Below the pieces are notes generated by a model, which saw only the letters and a list, made by a program, of their open reading frames with translations, searched no databases and was not told the origin of the DNA. A DNA stretch of 33,676 nucleotides, from the NCBI GenBank assembly GCA_021161865.1, contig JAGGZU010000118.1, positions 1 to 33,676 of the forward strand, read 5' to 3'. The position numbers and the translations under genes are program-made. This document shows, piece by piece, positions 228 through 25,049 of this stretch; positions within the stretch are counted from its first letter, which is position 1; each line of letters begins with the position of its first letter. The DNA is from Thermoplasmata archaeon. Lineage in GTDB: Archaea; Thermoplasmatota; E2; DHVEG-1; B18-G2.

Positions 228-2963
228 CTACTTCCTTGTTTTATATAGGTATAATGCCAGTATGAGGAGTATAATTATGATTGGAAAAACTATGAACAAC
301 CATAGTTCCACTGAAAGTGGTTGCCCTGCAGCTTTGCTCTCTGAGGGTGGTTTTTCTATGGTGTGTGCATCAAGCGTGTATATGTGACCAGCCGCACCAA
401 CATATACTATGCCATCGTATGCTGCTGCAGAGGATGTGAGTGGTGTGGTAACATAATTGTAAACATCGTTGTTTATCATGTATTTTGGTGCAAAAGACCA
501 TTGGCAGGTACCGTTTGTTTTATCCAGGGCATAGAATCTGCCATCGTCTGACCCGATGAAAACGTAATCTCCATATACAAGTGGGGAGTCATGCACGGCT
601 GCTTTTGTTGAGAAATGCCAGAGCTCATTACCGCTCTCTGCATCTACCGCGTAAAGGTTGTTGTCCAAAGAACTTAGGTAGATCACTCCATCCTTTTCCA
701 CAGGAGTTGAGTCTATTCCCCATCCTGTTTCAAAACTCCATTGTTCATCACCGTTTTTGACAGAAATGGCGTGGAGACAGGTATCCCAGCCACCCACATA
801 TAATGTGTCGCTGTTTAGTAAAGGCTGTGTTGTTAATGGTGCATCAAAGGACATACTCCATGAGAGAGTCCCCTCTTCGCCTTTGAAAAGCATACATTTT
901 TCTCCACTGCATACAATTATGTTTCCATCATCAACCAGAACATAGGCTGGGTAACCATTTGACACCTGTTTATGCCATATTTCGTTTCCAGAGAGTTTCT
1001 CAAACAGGTAGAGGTTACCGGTGTATGTCCCAGCAGCAAGAAGTTTTCCACCCATTGATACCGATACCACTCTTTCATCCTGTATATTGTCCCACATTGT
1101 TTCGCCATCCGACGTGAACACATGCACTCCTGTGTCCGATCCAACAGCGATAACATCATTGTCAATCACAGGTTTTGTAACTTGTTCACCAAATGTTTTT
1201 TGCCATTGGAAGGCACCTGTTGATGCATCAAGCACCTGTATGGTTCCAGAGAGTGCTGTGTAAAGGTTGTTTTTGTAAACTATTAAGTTTGGCGATACAT
1301 CATTGGTTTCGTTACCAACTGGTATGCTCCATTCTACCTGTACGTTTAAGAGGGGGTCTCTGTAATTTTCTTTGGGTTTAGGTATTTTGTAGTCACGGTT
1401 AACGGGTAAACCAAACAGTCTCACCCAACCAGCTGGCTCAACCCTGTCCGCTATGTCTGGATAAACATTTTTGAGTCCTCTCTCCTCGGCATCCCATATT
1501 TTTCCACCAGGGTTTCCCCAGAACACCCAGAGTCCATTTCTTTTTATAAGATAGGAGTCTGTTATCTTGCAGTCAGATGACATATCAACGATTGGAGGGG
1601 TTGACATTATTTTTTTGACAACCTCTGTGTCGATTCTGCCATAGTATTCTTTGCCGAGTTCCTCAAATTTTATGTCTCTGTTAGATGGACGGTATTCTCT
1701 GGTGTAGTACTGGTATCCCTCTGTTTTTAGGAGTAAGTGAAGGAGTTGGTATACTCTACCTTTGTAGATTGATTCTAATCTTAGCTCCTCAGATCTAACC
1801 CGTATGTCCATCGGGTTGTTTGCTGACCAGTAGAAACCATTGAATGTTCGTTGCACCGAGTAAACATATAATCCTGCTTCAAGTCTTGCTATCTCACCTG
1901 TTTTTGCATCCCCTATTAGCCATACTGCGTTCATTATCCCATCACTGTTGTGTGTTAGGTAGTAAATAACATCATCTACGCTGTCTCCATACTGTGCAGC
2001 ATTTCTTGCTCTAACCGCTAATGGTAATCCTTTGTCCCTCCATACTCCTTGTGGACAGGTTGTTTCTATGAACGCTATTCCTTTTTCGTTTTGGTAGAAA
2101 TCCTCGTCGCTCCATATGTAACCTGGTGATGTACCTATTATGAACCTGTTTCCATTGTCTGGAACGACATCCAGTATAACATTCCACCTTTGAGCGATAT
2201 AGTATGAGAACCACCAGTTGCCGAACCATACTGAGTCGCTTATAACCATTTGACCATGTGTAGTTGCATTCCCTGTCGCCACGAATCCACTACAGTGATG
2301 GGCCGGTGGCTGCACGACCATTGTGGAGATGAATGTTGTCTCCTCTTTATCTGGGAGATTTGGAACGAAGCTTTTTATGGAGTAAAACAGGGATCTGAAG
2401 GGGTGTATGCTTTTGTGCGGAGCAAGTAGTCTTGACATGAACTCATACATTTCATTTAACGTGAGGATGTCCTCGTATGTTACCTTTCTTTCGAATATGG
2501 TTTCGTCTTTTGCGTTTACACCATCGGCTATGCCTTTTATCTCCTGCTGGTACTCTGGAGGATAGTCGTTCCAGTATATTTTCATGGCTCTTGTCTTACA
2601 GAACTCCCACCATTTTTCAGATGTTTTGTAGTATTTTGCTGAGCCTGGTGTTCCTGTGAATGATCCTATTACAGGCATGTTGTGTATGATGTTGCTCCAT
2701 CTTGTTATCATGTCTATGATCTCGCCTGATAGGAGGTAACCGTGTTGAAATCCTCTCTCGTATGGTGCCCCTTCTATGTGAACGTATATGAGCCCTTGGA
2801 TGTTGTATCTGCTTCCTTTGCCTATTGTTAAGGCGTTTTCGGTTTTTAGTGTTGTTTTGTCTTGTTGTTCGTGTGTTAGGGTTGCTGTAGTTACTGGGGC
2901 TGTTATTAAAACTACTAGCAATATACTGATTATTATTTTTGTATTTATCATAACTACCACCAA
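228..2963 (-). CDS. Secreted/anchored fusion protein: N-terminal Ntn-hydrolase-like (peptidase C45 / phospholipase B-like) domain, PQQ-type beta-propeller repeats, C-terminal TM helix
   Basis: Signal peptide-like N-terminus (IIISILLVVLITAPVTTA); 'EGAPYERGFQHGYLL' motif typical of C45/PLB-like proteins; candidate nucleophile Cys224 in 'HHCSGFVATGNATTHGQ'; about 8 propeller-like repeats (e.g. 'LYVGGWDTCLHAISVKNGDEQWSFETG', 'IYLSSLDNNLYAVDAESGNELWHFSTK', 'VFIGSDDGRFYALDKTNGTCQWSF'); C-terminal TM 'LWLFIVFPIIIILLILALYLYKTRK'. Confidence 0.8.
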   Translation of the reverse strand: MVVVMINTKIIISILLVVLITAPVTTATLTHEQQDKTTLKTENALTIGKGSRYNIQGLIYVHIEGAPYERGFQHGYLLSGEIIDMITRWSNIIHNMPVIGSFTGTPGSAKYYKTSEKWWEFCKTRAMKIYWNDYPPEYQQEIKGIADGVNAKDETIFERKVTYEDILTLNEMYEFMSRLLAPHKSIHPFRSLFYSIKSFVPNLPDKEETTFISTMVVQPPAHHCSGFVATGNATTHGQMVISDSVWFGNWWFSYYIAQRWNVILDVVPDNGNRFIIGTSPGYIWSDEDFYQNEKGIAFIETTCPQGVWRDKGLPLAVRARNAAQYGDSVDDVIYYLTHNSDGIMNAVWLIGDAKTGEIARLEAGLYVYSVQRTFNGFYWSANNPMDIRVRSEELRLESIYKGRVYQLLHLLLKTEGYQYYTREYRPSNRDIKFEELGKEYYGRIDTEVVKKIMSTPPIVDMSSDCKITDSYLIKRNGLWVFWGNPGGKIWDAEERGLKNVYPDIADRVEPAGWVRLFGLPVNRDYKIPKPKENYRDPLLNVQVEWSIPVGNETNDVSPNLIVYKNNLYTALSGTIQVLDASTGAFQWQKTFGEQVTKPVIDNDVIAVGSDTGVHVFTSDGETMWDNIQDERVVSVSMGGKLLAAGTYTGNLYLFEKLSGNEIWHKQVSNGYPAYVLVDDGNIIVCSGEKCMLFKGEEGTLSWSMSFDAPLTTQPLLNSDTLYVGGWDTCLHAISVKNGDEQWSFETGWGIDSTPVEKDGVIYLSSLDNNLYAVDAESGNELWHFSTKAAVHDSPLVYGDYVFIGSDDGRFYALDKTNGTCQWSFAPKYMINNDVYNYVTTPLTSSAAAYDGIVYVGAAGHIYTLDAHTIEKPPSESKAAGQPLSVELWLFIVFPIIIILLILALYLYKTRK

Positions 2964-3001: not shown

Positions 3002-3394
3002 TTATGTTTTTAGATGAAAAACATATCTCGTTGGTATCCTTTTCTTCTTCCCAGTCCAGTATCCACACACTGGACATCTAAACTCAATCGTAACCTCCCC
3101 ACCCCATATAGTAAGGTTCTTAACTCTCTTTAAAACACTACCGCAAACCGGGCATTTAGTCAAGACCCTTTCAGGGTCACCATCCCTTGAGTGTATCTCA
3201 AGTTTAATAAAACCGCTCCTAACCGCTATGTTTCTAAGCCTCTGCTCGCTCACTAAACGAACAGTTTTCTTTGTCTTAAGATAACTGTCAACAAGCATCT
3301 TAAGTTTATGCTGAGACGGCACAACCTTCTGTTTCTTAAAAATGTTTTTAAGCGCTTTAACAACCTGCGTCTCGGTTGCCAAGGATTTCTTCAT
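3002..3394 (-). CDS. Conserved archaeal zinc-ribbon protein (unknown function)
   Basis: C-terminal CPVCG...CPVCG pair (CPVCGSVLKRVKN...EFRCPVCGYWTGKKKR), basic N-terminal helical region. Confidence 0.65.
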   Translation of the reverse strand: MKKSLATETQVVKALKNIFKKQKVVPSQHKLKMLVDSYLKTKKTVRLVSEQRLRNIAVRSGFIKLEIHSRDGDPERVLTKCPVCGSVLKRVKNLTIWGGEVTIEFRCPVCGYWTGKKKRIPTRYVFHLKT

Positions 3395-19936: not shown

Positions 19937-20968
19937 TTACCACCCCAGAGAGATGTGAAACAAAGAGGTTGAGTCAAACATTATCAGCAGCAGCCCAATC
20001 AAACTCATCAACGTGAGTGGTATCCAGTATGTGTAAACTATCTGGTCTATCTTCAACCTTGCCACCGCAACACGTACAAGGCTTACAGCAAATAATATCA
20101 CCAGTAGAAGTTTGATGAAGTAAAACACAACATCCACTACAGGCGCCATAATTCCACCAATACCAAGGATAGTTGAGAGGTTGTAAGGAAAGAATATCGC
20201 CACAATGAGAGAACCCATCACCACGGTTTTAACAGCATCAGCTAGGTAAAACAAACCAAGGTTTCTCCCAGAGTATTCAACAAGTAAACCACCAGCTATC
20301 TCAGTCTCAGCCTCAGGTGCATCAAAGGGCATCTTCGAAATCTCACCAGGGGTAACAAGTAAAAGCACAAGCAACAAAAGTATGAAACCAAGTAAACCAA
20401 CGATACCAACTGTACCCCAGACAGGTTGAGAGAATATGGTCGCTAAAGAAAATGGGTGATCGGCAAAGGTGTTTTTAAGTTGCCAGGCTATGGTTATAAT
20501 GGTTATTGCAAGCGGAAACTCGTAGGACATCATCAACACCATTTCACGTTGTGCACCCACTGTAGCATATGGTGAACCTGATGCGAAACCCCCGATTACC
20601 ATGGCTAAAGAGGGTATTATCAGCAGATAAAGCACCAGTATCAGATCGCCTTCACCAGACAGTATGGGTTGAAAGCCACCTATTGGCAGGTAAAGCAATG
20701 TAGCTATTGACGCTGCAAGAGCTATAATGGGTGCCAAGTTGAATAACCATGGTGTAGCATGCTCTGGAACCACAGTCTCCTTGACAAAAAGTTTAACCAT
20801 ATCCCAGAACGGCTGCCTTATAGGTGGACCGTACCTGGCTTGCATATGCGCAACAAGTTTTCTATCTATACCCTTGTACAGCAAACCAACAAATATACCA
20901 AACACGGCTACACCAATGGTTCCAAGGATCGCCCATAAAACAATCTCCATCGTTTCAACCAAACTCAT
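19937..20968 (-). CDS. mbhM: Membrane-bound hydrogenase subunit M (NuoH-like)
   Basis: Multi-TM; RKLVAHMQARYGPPIRQPFWDMVKLFVKE; 'EISKMPFDAPEAETEIAGGLLVEYSG'. Confidence 0.93.
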   Translation of the reverse strand: MSLVETMEIVLWAILGTIGVAVFGIFVGLLYKGIDRKLVAHMQARYGPPIRQPFWDMVKLFVKETVVPEHATPWLFNLAPIIALAASIATLLYLPIGGFQPILSGEGDLILVLYLLIIPSLAMVIGGFASGSPYATVGAQREMVLMMSYEFPLAITIITIAWQLKNTFADHPFSLATIFSQPVWGTVGIVGLLGFILLLLVLLLVTPGEISKMPFDAPEAETEIAGGLLVEYSGRNLGLFYLADAVKTVVMGSLIVAIFFPYNLSTILGIGGIMAPVVDVVFYFIKLLLVILFAVSLVRVAVARLKIDQIVYTYWIPLTLMSLIGLLLIMFDSTSLFHISLGW

Positions 20969-22182
20969 TGCATCAACCTCCTTGTTTTTTCAACACTGAG
21001 TTTATGTAGATGCTCATGGTCGAGTATATCTACTCTACCTTTTTTAACAACCGTAACCCTGTTGGTGCATGACATACACGGGTCTGTAGATGCTGCAACA
21101 ATCGGTATATCTGCAATCTGTTCACCCATCAGCATCGGTATCCAGGGCATAAGATTATTATACGTTGGCGCTCTGACCTTCCACGTGTAGGGATGCTCTT
21201 CGCCTGTTAGTTTAACGTAATGTATCACCTCTCCCCTTGGTGCCTCAGCACGTCCAACACCTTCACCAACAGCTTTTCTAAGCAAAGCAAGTAGTTTAGC
21301 AGGTTTTGGTTCAGTGACAAGATCGCCAGAGGGCATGTTGTCGATGCATTGCTCTATAATATCAACAGATTGAGCAACCTCAAGCAACCTCACAATGATC
21401 CTATCATACACATCGCCTTTAGCCTCACCTGTTACAGCATCTGGTGTAACCGTTTTTATGTCTAGATCACCGTAGGCAGCATAGGCATGGTCCACTCTAA
21501 CATCCTTTTTAACGCCACTTGCTCTCGCTGTTGGACCGACAGCGCAAAGCTCTAAAGCCTCTTTTTTTGTCAGCACGCCACAGTTTCTGCTTCTCATCCT
21601 AACAGTTTTGTCATCCAGAAAAACGTGTTTAAGTTTGTTAAACATCTCCTTATAGTAGTTAAGCGCCTCTCTTATCTTAGGATACTGCTCCTCGGTTATA
21701 TCCCTTCTAACCCCACCAACTGTAAACATCGCCTTTGTTATCCTGTTGCCTGTGAGGTACTCTATGAGGTCAAGAACCTTTTCTCTGACACGCCATGTAA
21801 GGTAGAGAACGGAATCAAAGCCTATCTCATGTGCCGCAACACCAGCCCACAGCATGTGGGAGTGAATCCTCTCCAGCTCAGCCGTTATCGTTCTAATGTA
21901 CTGCGCTCTCTCAGGAACCTCTATGCCTGCAGCCTCTTCAGTAGCCATGCAAAACGCTATTGGATGACTGATGTTGCAGATACCGCATATCCTCTCAGCT
22001 ATTGGCAGTATCTGCAGAGGATTCTTCTGGGTACCAATCCACTCTATTCCCCTGTGCACATGACCAACCTTGAAATCCACACCTACAATCCTTTCTCCCT
22101 CTATCTCAAACTCAAACATAACAGGTTCCTTGAGTGCGGGATGTATGGGACCTATGGGTATTGAATAGCTCATTTTGCTCAT
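20965..22182 (-). CDS. mbhL: Membrane-bound [NiFe]-hydrogenase large subunit (NuoD-like)
   Basis: N-terminal Ni ligand motif RICGICNISH and C-terminal DPCMSC; 'IPIGPIHPALKEP'. Confidence 0.94.
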   Translation of the reverse strand: MSKMSYSIPIGPIHPALKEPVMFEFEIEGERIVGVDFKVGHVHRGIEWIGTQKNPLQILPIAERICGICNISHPIAFCMATEEAAGIEVPERAQYIRTITAELERIHSHMLWAGVAAHEIGFDSVLYLTWRVREKVLDLIEYLTGNRITKAMFTVGGVRRDITEEQYPKIREALNYYKEMFNKLKHVFLDDKTVRMRSRNCGVLTKKEALELCAVGPTARASGVKKDVRVDHAYAAYGDLDIKTVTPDAVTGEAKGDVYDRIIVRLLEVAQSVDIIEQCIDNMPSGDLVTEPKPAKLLALLRKAVGEGVGRAEAPRGEVIHYVKLTGEEHPYTWKVRAPTYNNLMPWIPMLMGEQIADIPIVAASTDPCMSCTNRVTVVKKGRVDILDHEHLHKLSVEKTRRLMQ

Positions 22183-22712
22183 TTTTTCACCTCATAGAGG
22201 TCTCTCACCATCTTCTGCGGACCCTTTTCATCCTTTCTCCATGGGTATACATCCTCTGGGAAATCATCTGGTAAGAATATCCTTCTACCATCTGGTATAC
22301 CCTCTATCTTTACACCCAACATCTCCTGTTTTTCTCTCTCAGTCACAAGCGCTCCAGGTATAATATCTGTTATCGTGGGAATAACAGGCTTTTCTTTGGG
22401 AAGCTCAACCGATATGTTTATCAGTATTTCTTGTAGGGGGTTGCCGTAGTAGACCGTGAAGTGGTAGATAAGTTCAATGGTTTTACCGAGGTCATTACCT
22501 GATACAACAGCAAGGTGAGGATAATCATAGTTTTTGAGGTGTTTAACGATGTCATGTAAACTCTCCTTATCAGCCTTTAACCACAAGGCTGTTCTTTCCT
22601 TTTTCTTCACCCCCACAGCCCTTCGCTCTATCTTTGCATCCTTGATTTTTGATTTAAAAGCCTGTTTTAAATCCTTCACTAGTTCTTCAGGGGTCAACAG
22701 TTTTTTACTCAT
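22179..22712 (-). CDS. mbhK: Membrane-bound hydrogenase subunit K (NuoC-like, 30 kDa)
   Basis: ELIYHFTVYYGNPLQEILINISVELPKEKPVIPTITDIIPGALVTEREKQEMLGVKIEGIPDGRRIFLPDDFPEDVYPWRKDEKG. Confidence 0.92.
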   Translation of the reverse strand: MSKKLLTPEELVKDLKQAFKSKIKDAKIERRAVGVKKKERTALWLKADKESLHDIVKHLKNYDYPHLAVVSGNDLGKTIELIYHFTVYYGNPLQEILINISVELPKEKPVIPTITDIIPGALVTEREKQEMLGVKIEGIPDGRRIFLPDDFPEDVYPWRKDEKGPQKMVRDLYEVKK

Positions 22713-23140
22713 CTTTTAGCCTCCAGTGTTTCAAGTTTAAGCCATGCCTTCACCACCCCATCTATAATCGCCTCTGGTCTTGGTGGACAACCTGGAACAT
22801 AGACATCTACCGGTATGATAGTATCAACGGGTCCAACCAGGTTGTAGGATGTGTGGAAGGTGTGCCCTGTGCTGCCACAGTTGCCAACGACTATAACAGC
22901 CTTTGGCTCAGGCATCTGTTGATATGCTGTTTTCACTTTTTCAACCATTTGTCTGGTAACTGGACCTGTTATAAGCAATACATCCGCGTGTCTTGGTGAA
23001 CCGACCAGTTTTATGCCAAACCTTTCAACATCATACCTTGGTGTTAAAGCGGCTATGATCTCTATGTCGCAGCCATTGCATGAACCAGTGTTTATGTGGA
23101 AGACCCATAGTGAACGTTTAAAGGATTTTGGAAGAACCAT
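22709..23140 (-). CDS. mbhJ: Membrane-bound [NiFe]-hydrogenase small subunit (NuoB-like)
   Basis: GSCNGCDIEIIAALTPRYD...GPVTRQM...VGNCGSTG...VPGCPPRPEAI proximal cluster ligands. Confidence 0.93.
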   Translation of the reverse strand: MVLPKSFKRSLWVFHINTGSCNGCDIEIIAALTPRYDVERFGIKLVGSPRHADVLLITGPVTRQMVEKVKTAYQQMPEPKAVIVVGNCGSTGHTFHTSYNLVGPVDTIIPVDVYVPGCPPRPEAIIDGVVKAWLKLETLEAKR

Positions 23141-23143
23141 CTC

Positions 23144-23500
23144 TTACATCACCCCCAGAACAACAGCAAAGAAGACAACCATCATAACCAGAAACCAGAG
23201 AACGTAGTCTCTTGTATCGCCTGTGTGCATACTTTTTATTTTATTATAATATCCCTTGAATGCTTCAGTGAAACCCCAGTAAACGTTTCCTCCTTTAACA
23301 TGTAGCTGTTCATCATTTTCAACAACGTTACCAGATAAGAAGGGTTTTGTTTGCCCAGTGTTTTTCTTGTAATCACCTCTACCTAAGCCCCTTATGACGT
23401 AAACGATTAAGAGGGCTATGATGAAAACTATCACCCATATGAGTGGGTTCCAGAAACCACTTCCCGTATCTATTGGAACAAAGGGGTTCATCCTATGCAC
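23144..23500 (-). CDS. mbhI: Membrane-bound hydrogenase subunit I (small membrane protein)
   Basis: 118-aa ORF with two TM segments at the mbhI position between the MnhD-like and NuoB-like subunits. Confidence 0.8.
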   Translation of the reverse strand: MHRMNPFVPIDTGSGFWNPLIWVIVFIIALLIVYVIRGLGRGDYKKNTGQTKPFLSGNVVENDEQLHVKGGNVYWGFTEAFKGYYNKIKSMHTGDTRDYVLWFLVMMVVFFAVVLGVM

Positions 23501-25049
23501 CTCCTAAAATTGCGTTTATATAGTTGGTTGGGTTGCTGAGCGCTGCAACCGCTGGATCGACGATTGTTTGAAGCACGTAACCTGGGAATAAGCCAAAGAT
23601 TATGATGAGTGTGGCGAGTATGGCCATGGCTACAAGCATCCCCTTAGGTACCTCCTTAACATCTCTGAGATGCGGAAGCTCGGGTCCAAGGAAAAGTGAG
23701 TAGAATATTTTGACAAATATCGCCAACAACAGTATGCTTGACAGAATCGCTATTATGGATATAATTGGGTTTAGCTGATAGGTTGACTCGTAAATCAAGA
23801 TTTTTGATGCAAAACCGTTCAGTGGTGGCATACCTGCTACAGCCAGCAACCCTATTAGGAAGAACACCGTTGTGTACTTCATCCTTTTTGCAAGCCCTCC
23901 AAGATTGTTCAAATCCCTCTCCTTAGTAGCGTATATTATGGCTCCAGCTACTAGGAAGAGAAGCCCTATATCAAGGACATCGTTGAATATGTGAAACACT
24001 CCTCCTTTTAAAGCGACGGTTGCAAAGTTTTGTGCACCAGCTGCAAGTGCAGTACCTGCTCCTATAACCATGTAACCTATCTCTCCAACAGCGGCAAAGG
24101 CTATGGTTCTGGTCAAACTTCTTTGAACAAGAGCCATTGTGACACCTATGAATATGGTTAGAAGTCCCAGTCCAACCAGTGTCCACCCAACGGCGGCCAT
24201 GTTGAGCCTAAGCCCTTTGCCATATAACGTGAAACACACCCTTAACACACCATACAGGCTTGCCTGGGTGGCTGCAACAACAGCTATGGTCACAGATGGT
24301 GGCGCCTCACCATAAGCATCTGGTAACCACATGTGCATCGGTGCTATACCAGCCTTCATTGTGAGTGCTGCAAGAAGCAGTACAAGCGCTACCTTGTCTA
24401 TGAAGGTAAACTGTATACTGTTTGCAAGAGCTGCAATATTTAACGCATCATACTGCCCGTATAGGAAACCGATTGCCATGAGTACAAAAAGTGCACCTAT
24501 GGAGCTTATCACAATATACTTAAACGCGGCTTCAAGGGATTCTCCTCTGTCTACCCAAAACGCTATAAGTGCACAGCTTGCAATCGAGGTTATCTCCAGG
24601 AAAACGAAGAAGTTGAAAAGATCGCCGGTGAGCTCCATTCCAACCATTCCAACGGTTACAAGGAGTAGAAGAGTGTAGTATCTATCCAGCCCATCCTCTT
24701 TTTTGAAGAACGATGATGAGTAGACTGTTGCAACAAAGGCTATTGTTAAACTAATCAAAACCATGAAGATACTTAACCCATCTATCTCGAATATTATCCT
24801 CACTGGTATAGACATGGTGCCTGGGTGCGTGAGAGAGGGTAGAGTTGCACCAAACACATATTTCCTTATACCATTGGCATATATGTCCTGTGCCAACAGT
24901 AAAGCAAGAAGTTCTGTTGCTGCAAGGACTATTAAAACAAAGCCGTCTCTTGCACGGCGATGGATTCTGCTTAGCAACGGTGTTATGAACGCAGCAAACA
25001 ATGGGATAGCAATAAGGAGGGCTGGAGAGTGTGTAATTATGCTGTTCAT
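23493..25049 (-). CDS. mbhH: Membrane-bound hydrogenase subunit H (MnhD/NuoN-like antiporter subunit)
   Basis: 518-aa multi-TM; 'MELTGDLFNFFVFLEITSIASCALIAF', 'MKAGIAPMHMWLPDAYGEAPPSVT', 'FHIFNDVLDIGLLFL', 'AGMPPLNGFASK'. Confidence 0.94.
   Translation of the reverse strand: MNSIITHSPALLIAIPLFAAFITPLLSRIHRRARDGFVLIVLAATELLALLLAQDIYANGIRKYVFGATLPSLTHPGTMSIPVRIIFEIDGLSIFMVLISLTIAFVATVYSSSFFKKEDGLDRYYTLLLLVTVGMVGMELTGDLFNFFVFLEITSIASCALIAFWVDRGESLEAAFKYIVISSIGALFVLMAIGFLYGQYDALNIAALANSIQFTFIDKVALVLLLAALTMKAGIAPMHMWLPDAYGEAPPSVTIAVVAATQASLYGVLRVCFTLYGKGLRLNMAAVGWTLVGLGLLTIFIGVTMALVQRSLTRTIAFAAVGEIGYMVIGAGTALAAGAQNFATVALKGGVFHIFNDVLDIGLLFLVAGAIIYATKERDLNNLGGLAKRMKYTTVFFLIGLLAVAGMPPLNGFASKILIYESTYQLNPIISIIAILSSILLLAIFVKIFYSLFLGPELPHLRDVKEVPKGMLVAMAILATLIIIFGLFPGYVLQTIVDPAVAALSNPTNYINAILGGA

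Follow-up and report, generated by a model that had tools for sequence, protein, structure and literature searches.

A conserved fusion of an Ntn-hydrolase-type domain with an eight-bladed propeller in Thermoplasmata archaea

The gene and its neighborhood

The window analyzed here is a 33,676-nucleotide stretch of DNA from a Thermoplasmata archaeon. On its minus strand, the ORF listing contains a 911-codon open reading frame (ORF) at positions 228-2963, and the opposite (plus) strand across this region is rich in stops. The gene is complete, although the contig ends at the window edges. The first-pass annotation had described a 911-aa ORF; the ORF itself was confirmed and lies on the minus strand, but translation probably begins at residue 5. 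Since the listed TTG start (2963) overlaps a ribosome-binding-like GGTGGT (2961-2956), translation more likely starts from ATG 2951 (residue 5, MINTKIIISILLVVLI...), giving a protein of 907 aa. The N terminus encoded from this ATG, MINTKIIISILLVV, is a normal signal-peptide start. Despite the probable start at residue 5, residue numbering follows the 911-aa count throughout. The features of the locus are collected in Table 1.

Table 1. Features of the locus, with coordinates in the window
Feature	Coordinates	Strand	Basis
Whole gene, probable ATG start	228..2951	-	ORF; GGTGGT few nt 5' of ATG; listed ORF starts with TTG at 2963
Signal peptide, about residues 5-28	2880..2951	-	Hydrophobic N terminus
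Predicted alpha chain, residues ~29-223, with RGxQxG (70-75) and E137/E141	2295..2879	-	Conserved columns, model; cleavage predicted
Ntn-hydrolase domain, C45/C95 phospholipase-B-like, residues ~46-520	1404..2828	-	Pfam, NCBIfam, profile, model, Foldseek
Cys224, predicted nucleophile and new N terminus; scissile bond His223-Cys224	2292..2294	-	Conserved in 75/75; beta-strand start in model
Thr302, counterpart of PLBD2 T330 (oxyanion-hole backbone NH)	2058..2060	-	Alignment to 3fgr_B, PMC2739207
Asn382, candidate oxyanion-hole Asn (PLBD2 N432)	1818..1820	-	Profile alignment to PLBD1 SYNIP
Eight-bladed PQQ/BamB-type beta-propeller, residues ~543-865	369..1337	-	Pfam, model, Foldseek; first strand 543-548 closes blade 8
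C-terminal transmembrane helix, basic end KTRK, residues ~885-910	234..311	-	Model helix and homologue hydropathy
Zinc-ribbon gene, adjacent upstream, co-directional	3002..3394	-	Conserved neighbor in 25 homologous loci

Full-length homologues show 36-53% identity (up to 64-65% for the Ntn domain alone), indicating that gene and fusion are not due to chance. Many metagenomes together contain 42 complete fused homologues, which rules out a chance ORF or a chimeric assembly.

The upstream zinc-ribbon protein (130 aa) shows 41-84% identity across 25 loci, where its gene mostly lies directly upstream of the fused gene; no Pfam family matched it above the cut-off. The conserved neighbors, found in up to 25 loci, also include two CBS genes, Hjc, a small universal-stress-like protein, coaBC, and a GHMP kinase. 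This conserved neighborhood argues for vertical inheritance of the fused gene. The zinc-ribbon, CBS, Hjc, coaBC, and GHMP kinase genes give no clue to the substrate or function. Searches of the window for tRNAs and Rfam families yielded zero matches. Elsewhere in the window (19937-25049, minus strand), genes resembling subunits of complex I or membrane hydrogenase were observed (NADHdh, 49-kDa, and proton antiporter).

The N-terminal half is predicted to be an Ntn hydrolase

The C45/phospholipase-B-like Ntn domain proposed in the first-pass annotation was recovered by family searches and by modeling. Pfam Phospholip_B (PF04916, MEROPS C95) was matched with 33.6 bits (2.3e-8), passing the gathering cut-off of 27. 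The NCBIfam model C45_proenzyme (NF040521) gave 86.4 bits for the whole protein (2.2e-24) and 88.7 for the domain, so that membership in the C45 family narrowly passes the cut-off of 85. Both families matched all 75 relatives (E<=0.01 for Phospholip_B), and Pfam AAT matched 8 of the 75. When the 75-domain profile was compared with solved chains, as the earlier annotation had suggested, it reached PLBD1 (1.7e-12), PLBD2 (6e-11), and isopenicillin-N acyltransferase (IAT; 0.007).

An AlphaFold2 model of residues 30-545 (pLDDT 90.1, pTM 0.90) was then compared with solved structures by Foldseek. The three best matches were PLBD2 (3fgw, 1.4e-14), IAT (2x1d, TMt 0.70), and PLBD1 (4bwc), followed by cephalosporin acylases, AHL acylase, and bile-salt hydrolases; all of the matches listed were Ntn hydrolases. 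The TM-score versus PLBD2 was moderate (0.55) at 13% identity. The fold in the model is the alpha-beta-beta-alpha fold of the Ntn superfamily, and the earlier assignment withstood this structural check.

PLBD1 and PLBD2 (C95, PF04916) are the best match both by sequence and by fold. They share with what is predicted for the archaeal protein the Ntn fold, an alpha chain of ~200 residues followed by a Cys nucleophile, and export. In contrast to it, they are soluble lysosomal proteins without propeller or transmembrane helix, and identity in the fold alignment is ~13%. IAT (acyl-CoA:6-APA acyltransferase, C45) has the RGxQxG region and the Ntn fold in common with our protein, which passes the C45_proenzyme cut-off, but is fungal, is ~357 aa long, has a shorter alpha chain, and lacks propeller and anchor.

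Cys224 is invariant and is predicted to follow a retained alpha chain

The candidate nucleophile named earlier, Cys224 in HHCSGFVATG, is invariant in all 75 relatives (49 archaeal and 26 other, mostly bacterial), in line with the conserved Cys, Ser, or Thr nucleophile of the Ntn superfamily. In the model it opens a beta strand (model residue 195/196). The preceding residue is mostly His, Lys, or Arg in the relatives and Ser in PLBD2. Arg70/Gln73/Gly75 and Glu137/Glu141 are also invariant or nearly so, Arg318/320 are conserved, and Thr301 is invariant (75/75).

In PLBD2, T330 and N432 were proposed as oxyanion-hole residues (PMC2739207). At Thr302, Thr is found in 45 of 49 archaeal and 26 of 26 other rows. 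Asn382, tentatively equated with N432 by profile alignment, is Asn in 72 of 75 rows (46/49 archaeal, 26/26 other). PLBD-type active sites have a His (or Arg) close to the nucleophile, His266 in PLBD2. Position 243, which aligns with PLBD2 His266 in a region of uncertain alignment, is Asp in our protein and H, D, N, or Q in relatives, so the residue tuning the nucleophile does not appear to be fixed. Subgroups might differ in activity through this variation.

PLBD2 is cleaved before Cys249, with autocatalysis proposed, into fragments of 28 and 40 kDa (PMC2739207), and in PLBD2 orthologues both chains stay together (PMC2739207, PMC8053727). A PLBD2-like layout predicts chains of ~22 and ~75 kDa for the archaeal protein, the larger bearing propeller and anchor. 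The first-pass annotation predicted a propeptide of roughly 200 residues before Cys224. In the model, the ~195 residues N-terminal to Cys224 contribute numerous helices and strands to the domain. They make up much of the fold, like the alpha chain of PLBD2. It is therefore unlikely that they are discarded as a propeptide; a retained alpha chain is the better reading.

The C-terminal half is an eight-bladed propeller followed by a membrane helix

Pfam PQQ_2 repeats were detected in the C-terminal half (2e-32). A model of residues 30-911 (pLDDT 89.4, pTM 0.89) contains eight four-stranded blades, the first strand completing the last blade, in agreement with the approximately eight repeats counted earlier. 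The propeller part matches the designed protein Cake8 (TMt 0.87, 25% identity) and BamB. The NCBIfam cut-offs for BamB (TIGR03300, 116.8 versus 285.2 bits) and for PQQ-dependent dehydrogenase (TIGR03075, 62.1 versus 480 bits) were not reached; with the dehydrogenases, the propeller shares the repeat alone. It is BamB-like and shows no indication of PQQ binding: the "PQQ type" of the first-pass annotation holds as a repeat name only. BamB and Cake8 share the eight-bladed PQQ-repeat fold but are stand-alone proteins, and BamB is a lipoprotein belonging to the machinery that assembles the bacterial outer membrane.

The pTM of 0.89 over 882 residues suggests that the Ntn domain and the propeller hold a defined mutual pose in the model. 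Conservation differs between the two, the Ntn half being better conserved than the propeller half as judged by invariant columns. One homologue, L074 (737-aa ORF), has a shorter propeller with a profile match only to residues 525-694, perhaps with fewer blades.

The signal peptide annotated earlier was found as a hydrophobic N terminus in every complete Thermoplasmata homologue (max KD15 1.9-3.3). The C-terminal anchor is likewise present in our protein, as a single 26-residue helix that ends the model (model residues 856-881, +29 = 885-910), but it is not universal. By hydropathy, the helix is found in 33 of 42 complete homologues, a count that leaves out the 167-aa fragment of L078. The other nine stop just past the propeller, and their products may be released or otherwise held.

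The fusion is conserved in one archaeal class

Scanning GTDB with one genome for each species yielded 204 relatives, the best 80 of which were used. Among these, all 42 complete Thermoplasmatota ORFs carry both domains, and Thermoplasmatota relatives without a propeller are interrupted by contig ends. We also considered whether the two halves are separate genes in close relatives and rejected this: apart from G053 and a frame-broken copy in G010, which lies beside another intact copy, Ntn-only cases are due to contig ends. A strong match (E<=1e-40) was found in 52 of 80 genomes of the class, one of them, G053, unfused. The G053 protein is 483 aa long, without a propeller within 3.5 kb, and groups on a long branch with unfused relatives. 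Some match to the whole protein was present in 54 of 59 related genomes, many of these matches being propellers only; propeller proteins without an Ntn domain are abundant in the same genomes.

Outside the class, Thermoplasmatota relatives have open frames of 346-701 aa (190-311 bits); judged by length, nearly all are too short for both domains, and a fusion elsewhere in the phylum was rejected on this ground. The bacterial relatives and one from Methanothrix, mostly ~470-1140 aa, lack this propeller. In three of them (L084, L087, and L089, from Planctomycetota and Acidobacteriota), weak M1-peptidase matches below the cut-off follow the Ntn domain, perhaps representing a different fusion of the same domain.

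In a quick tree of 76 Ntn domains, rooted by the unfused group, a branch with SH-aLRT 98 separates the fused sequences from the rest. Some genomes have two or three copies. By these sequence comparisons, the Ntn-propeller fusion is an old, conserved, monophyletic architecture of one archaeal class. Relatives elsewhere lack this propeller. The first-pass annotation had called the combination unusual; the fusion marks a conserved clade and is not peculiar to this genome. None of the three refuting conditions set out in that annotation (a different fold, a variable Cys224, separate genes in close relatives) was borne out, and apart from the corrections given here its reading was accurate. No earlier description was found in the literature searched, with most subscription journals outside it. 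As a separate observation, L078 (167-aa ORF) and L145 (G010:C19) are degenerate or frame-broken paralogues in genomes with intact copies, suggesting gene turnover or sequencing error.

Proposed function and alternative readings

We consider it likely that the protein is an exported type I membrane Ntn hydrolase, autocleaved at Cys224, which acts on an extracellular acyl bond and uses the propeller as a platform. An enzyme of the penicillin-V-acylase (C45-C95) branch would be exported and fold as an inactive precursor. From what is known of the family, the precursor would cut itself at His223|Cys224, and the alpha chain (~29-223) and beta chain (224-911) would stay associated. The free amino group of Cys224 would serve as base for its own thiol, and the thiol would attack the acyl bond, most likely an amide and less likely an ester, again by analogy with the family. 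Water or another acceptor would then release the acyl-enzyme. The propeller, in fixed pose, probably presents the catalytic domain above the membrane and binds a substrate or partner, and the C-terminal helix would tether the enzyme to the membrane. A guess at the substrates would be N-acyl amino acids, peptides, or lipids from sediment detritus. Counting against this reading are the moderate TM-score versus PLBD2 at low identity, the variable residue at position 243, the mostly basic residue before the Cys where PLBD2 has Ser, and a gene neighborhood that points to no substrate. Secretion of peptidases is known from sediment relatives (PMC6461988) and fits extracellular scavenging without being proof of it; C45 is not mentioned in the main text of that study.

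It is rather unlikely that the protein is instead an IAT-like acyltransferase onto a surface acceptor, for example in modification of its own envelope. The place of IAT among the three best fold matches, where its TM by target length is the highest (0.70), and the 8 of 75 AAT matches point this way, and an order-wide gene with a conserved chromosomal place would fit a core envelope role. However, PLBD1/2 and not IAT are closest by sequence, and acyl-CoA or another donor is not expected outside the cell. An ester hydrolase of the phospholipase B type, acting on bacterial or eukaryotic phospholipids, seems improbable. The archaea's own lipids are ether-linked, which speaks against it. The Pfam name Phospholip_B favors it, as does the homology to PLBDs, which have been claimed to act as phospholipases (PMC8053727), but a 2022 review describes the substrates of PLBD1/2 as elusive and fatty-acid amide lipids as likely (PMC9140057). 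Propeller proteins without an Ntn domain are plentiful in the same genomes, as expected if the propeller did the work (adhesion or binding) and the Ntn domain were a non-enzymatic scaffold. Against this very improbable reading, the nucleophile and its surrounding motif are invariant in 75 archaeal and bacterial sequences, and the Ntn half is the more conserved one.

Under the hydrolase reading, what is new is the domain architecture within a known superfamily and not the kind of enzyme, and the chemistry should be that of ordinary Ntn hydrolases. A bolder version has a small chance of being correct: in a class-wide archaeal ectoenzyme, the propeller would gate or supply substrate to the autocleaved Ntn site, acting on a bond new for Ntn hydrolases, for example in remodeling of archaeal surface glycoproteins or lipids. 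If this were true, the substrate question of the PLBD/C95 family would become testable in a prokaryote.

The PLBD/C95 family, to which two lysosomal proteins of humans and an essential protein of trypanosomes belong, has no agreed substrate (PMC8053727, PMC9140057). Compared by description, p67 of Trypanosoma brucei resembles what is predicted for the archaeal protein in its two-piece cleaved PLB-like ectodomain and type I transmembrane helix, but no propeller is mentioned in that account (PMC8053727), and its alpha/beta junction may use Ser242. The conserved, tethered archaeal form, paired with a propeller in a widespread sediment lineage, provides PLBD/C95 with a prokaryotic model, and the pairing is a natural experiment on what the Ntn domain works with. 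The protein is also a further candidate extracellular enzyme of sediment Thermoplasmatota. The same genome encodes a second, distant C45-type Ntn protein without a propeller (L140, G000:C63, 460-aa ORF), and similar copies of 430-500 aa are widespread across the class.
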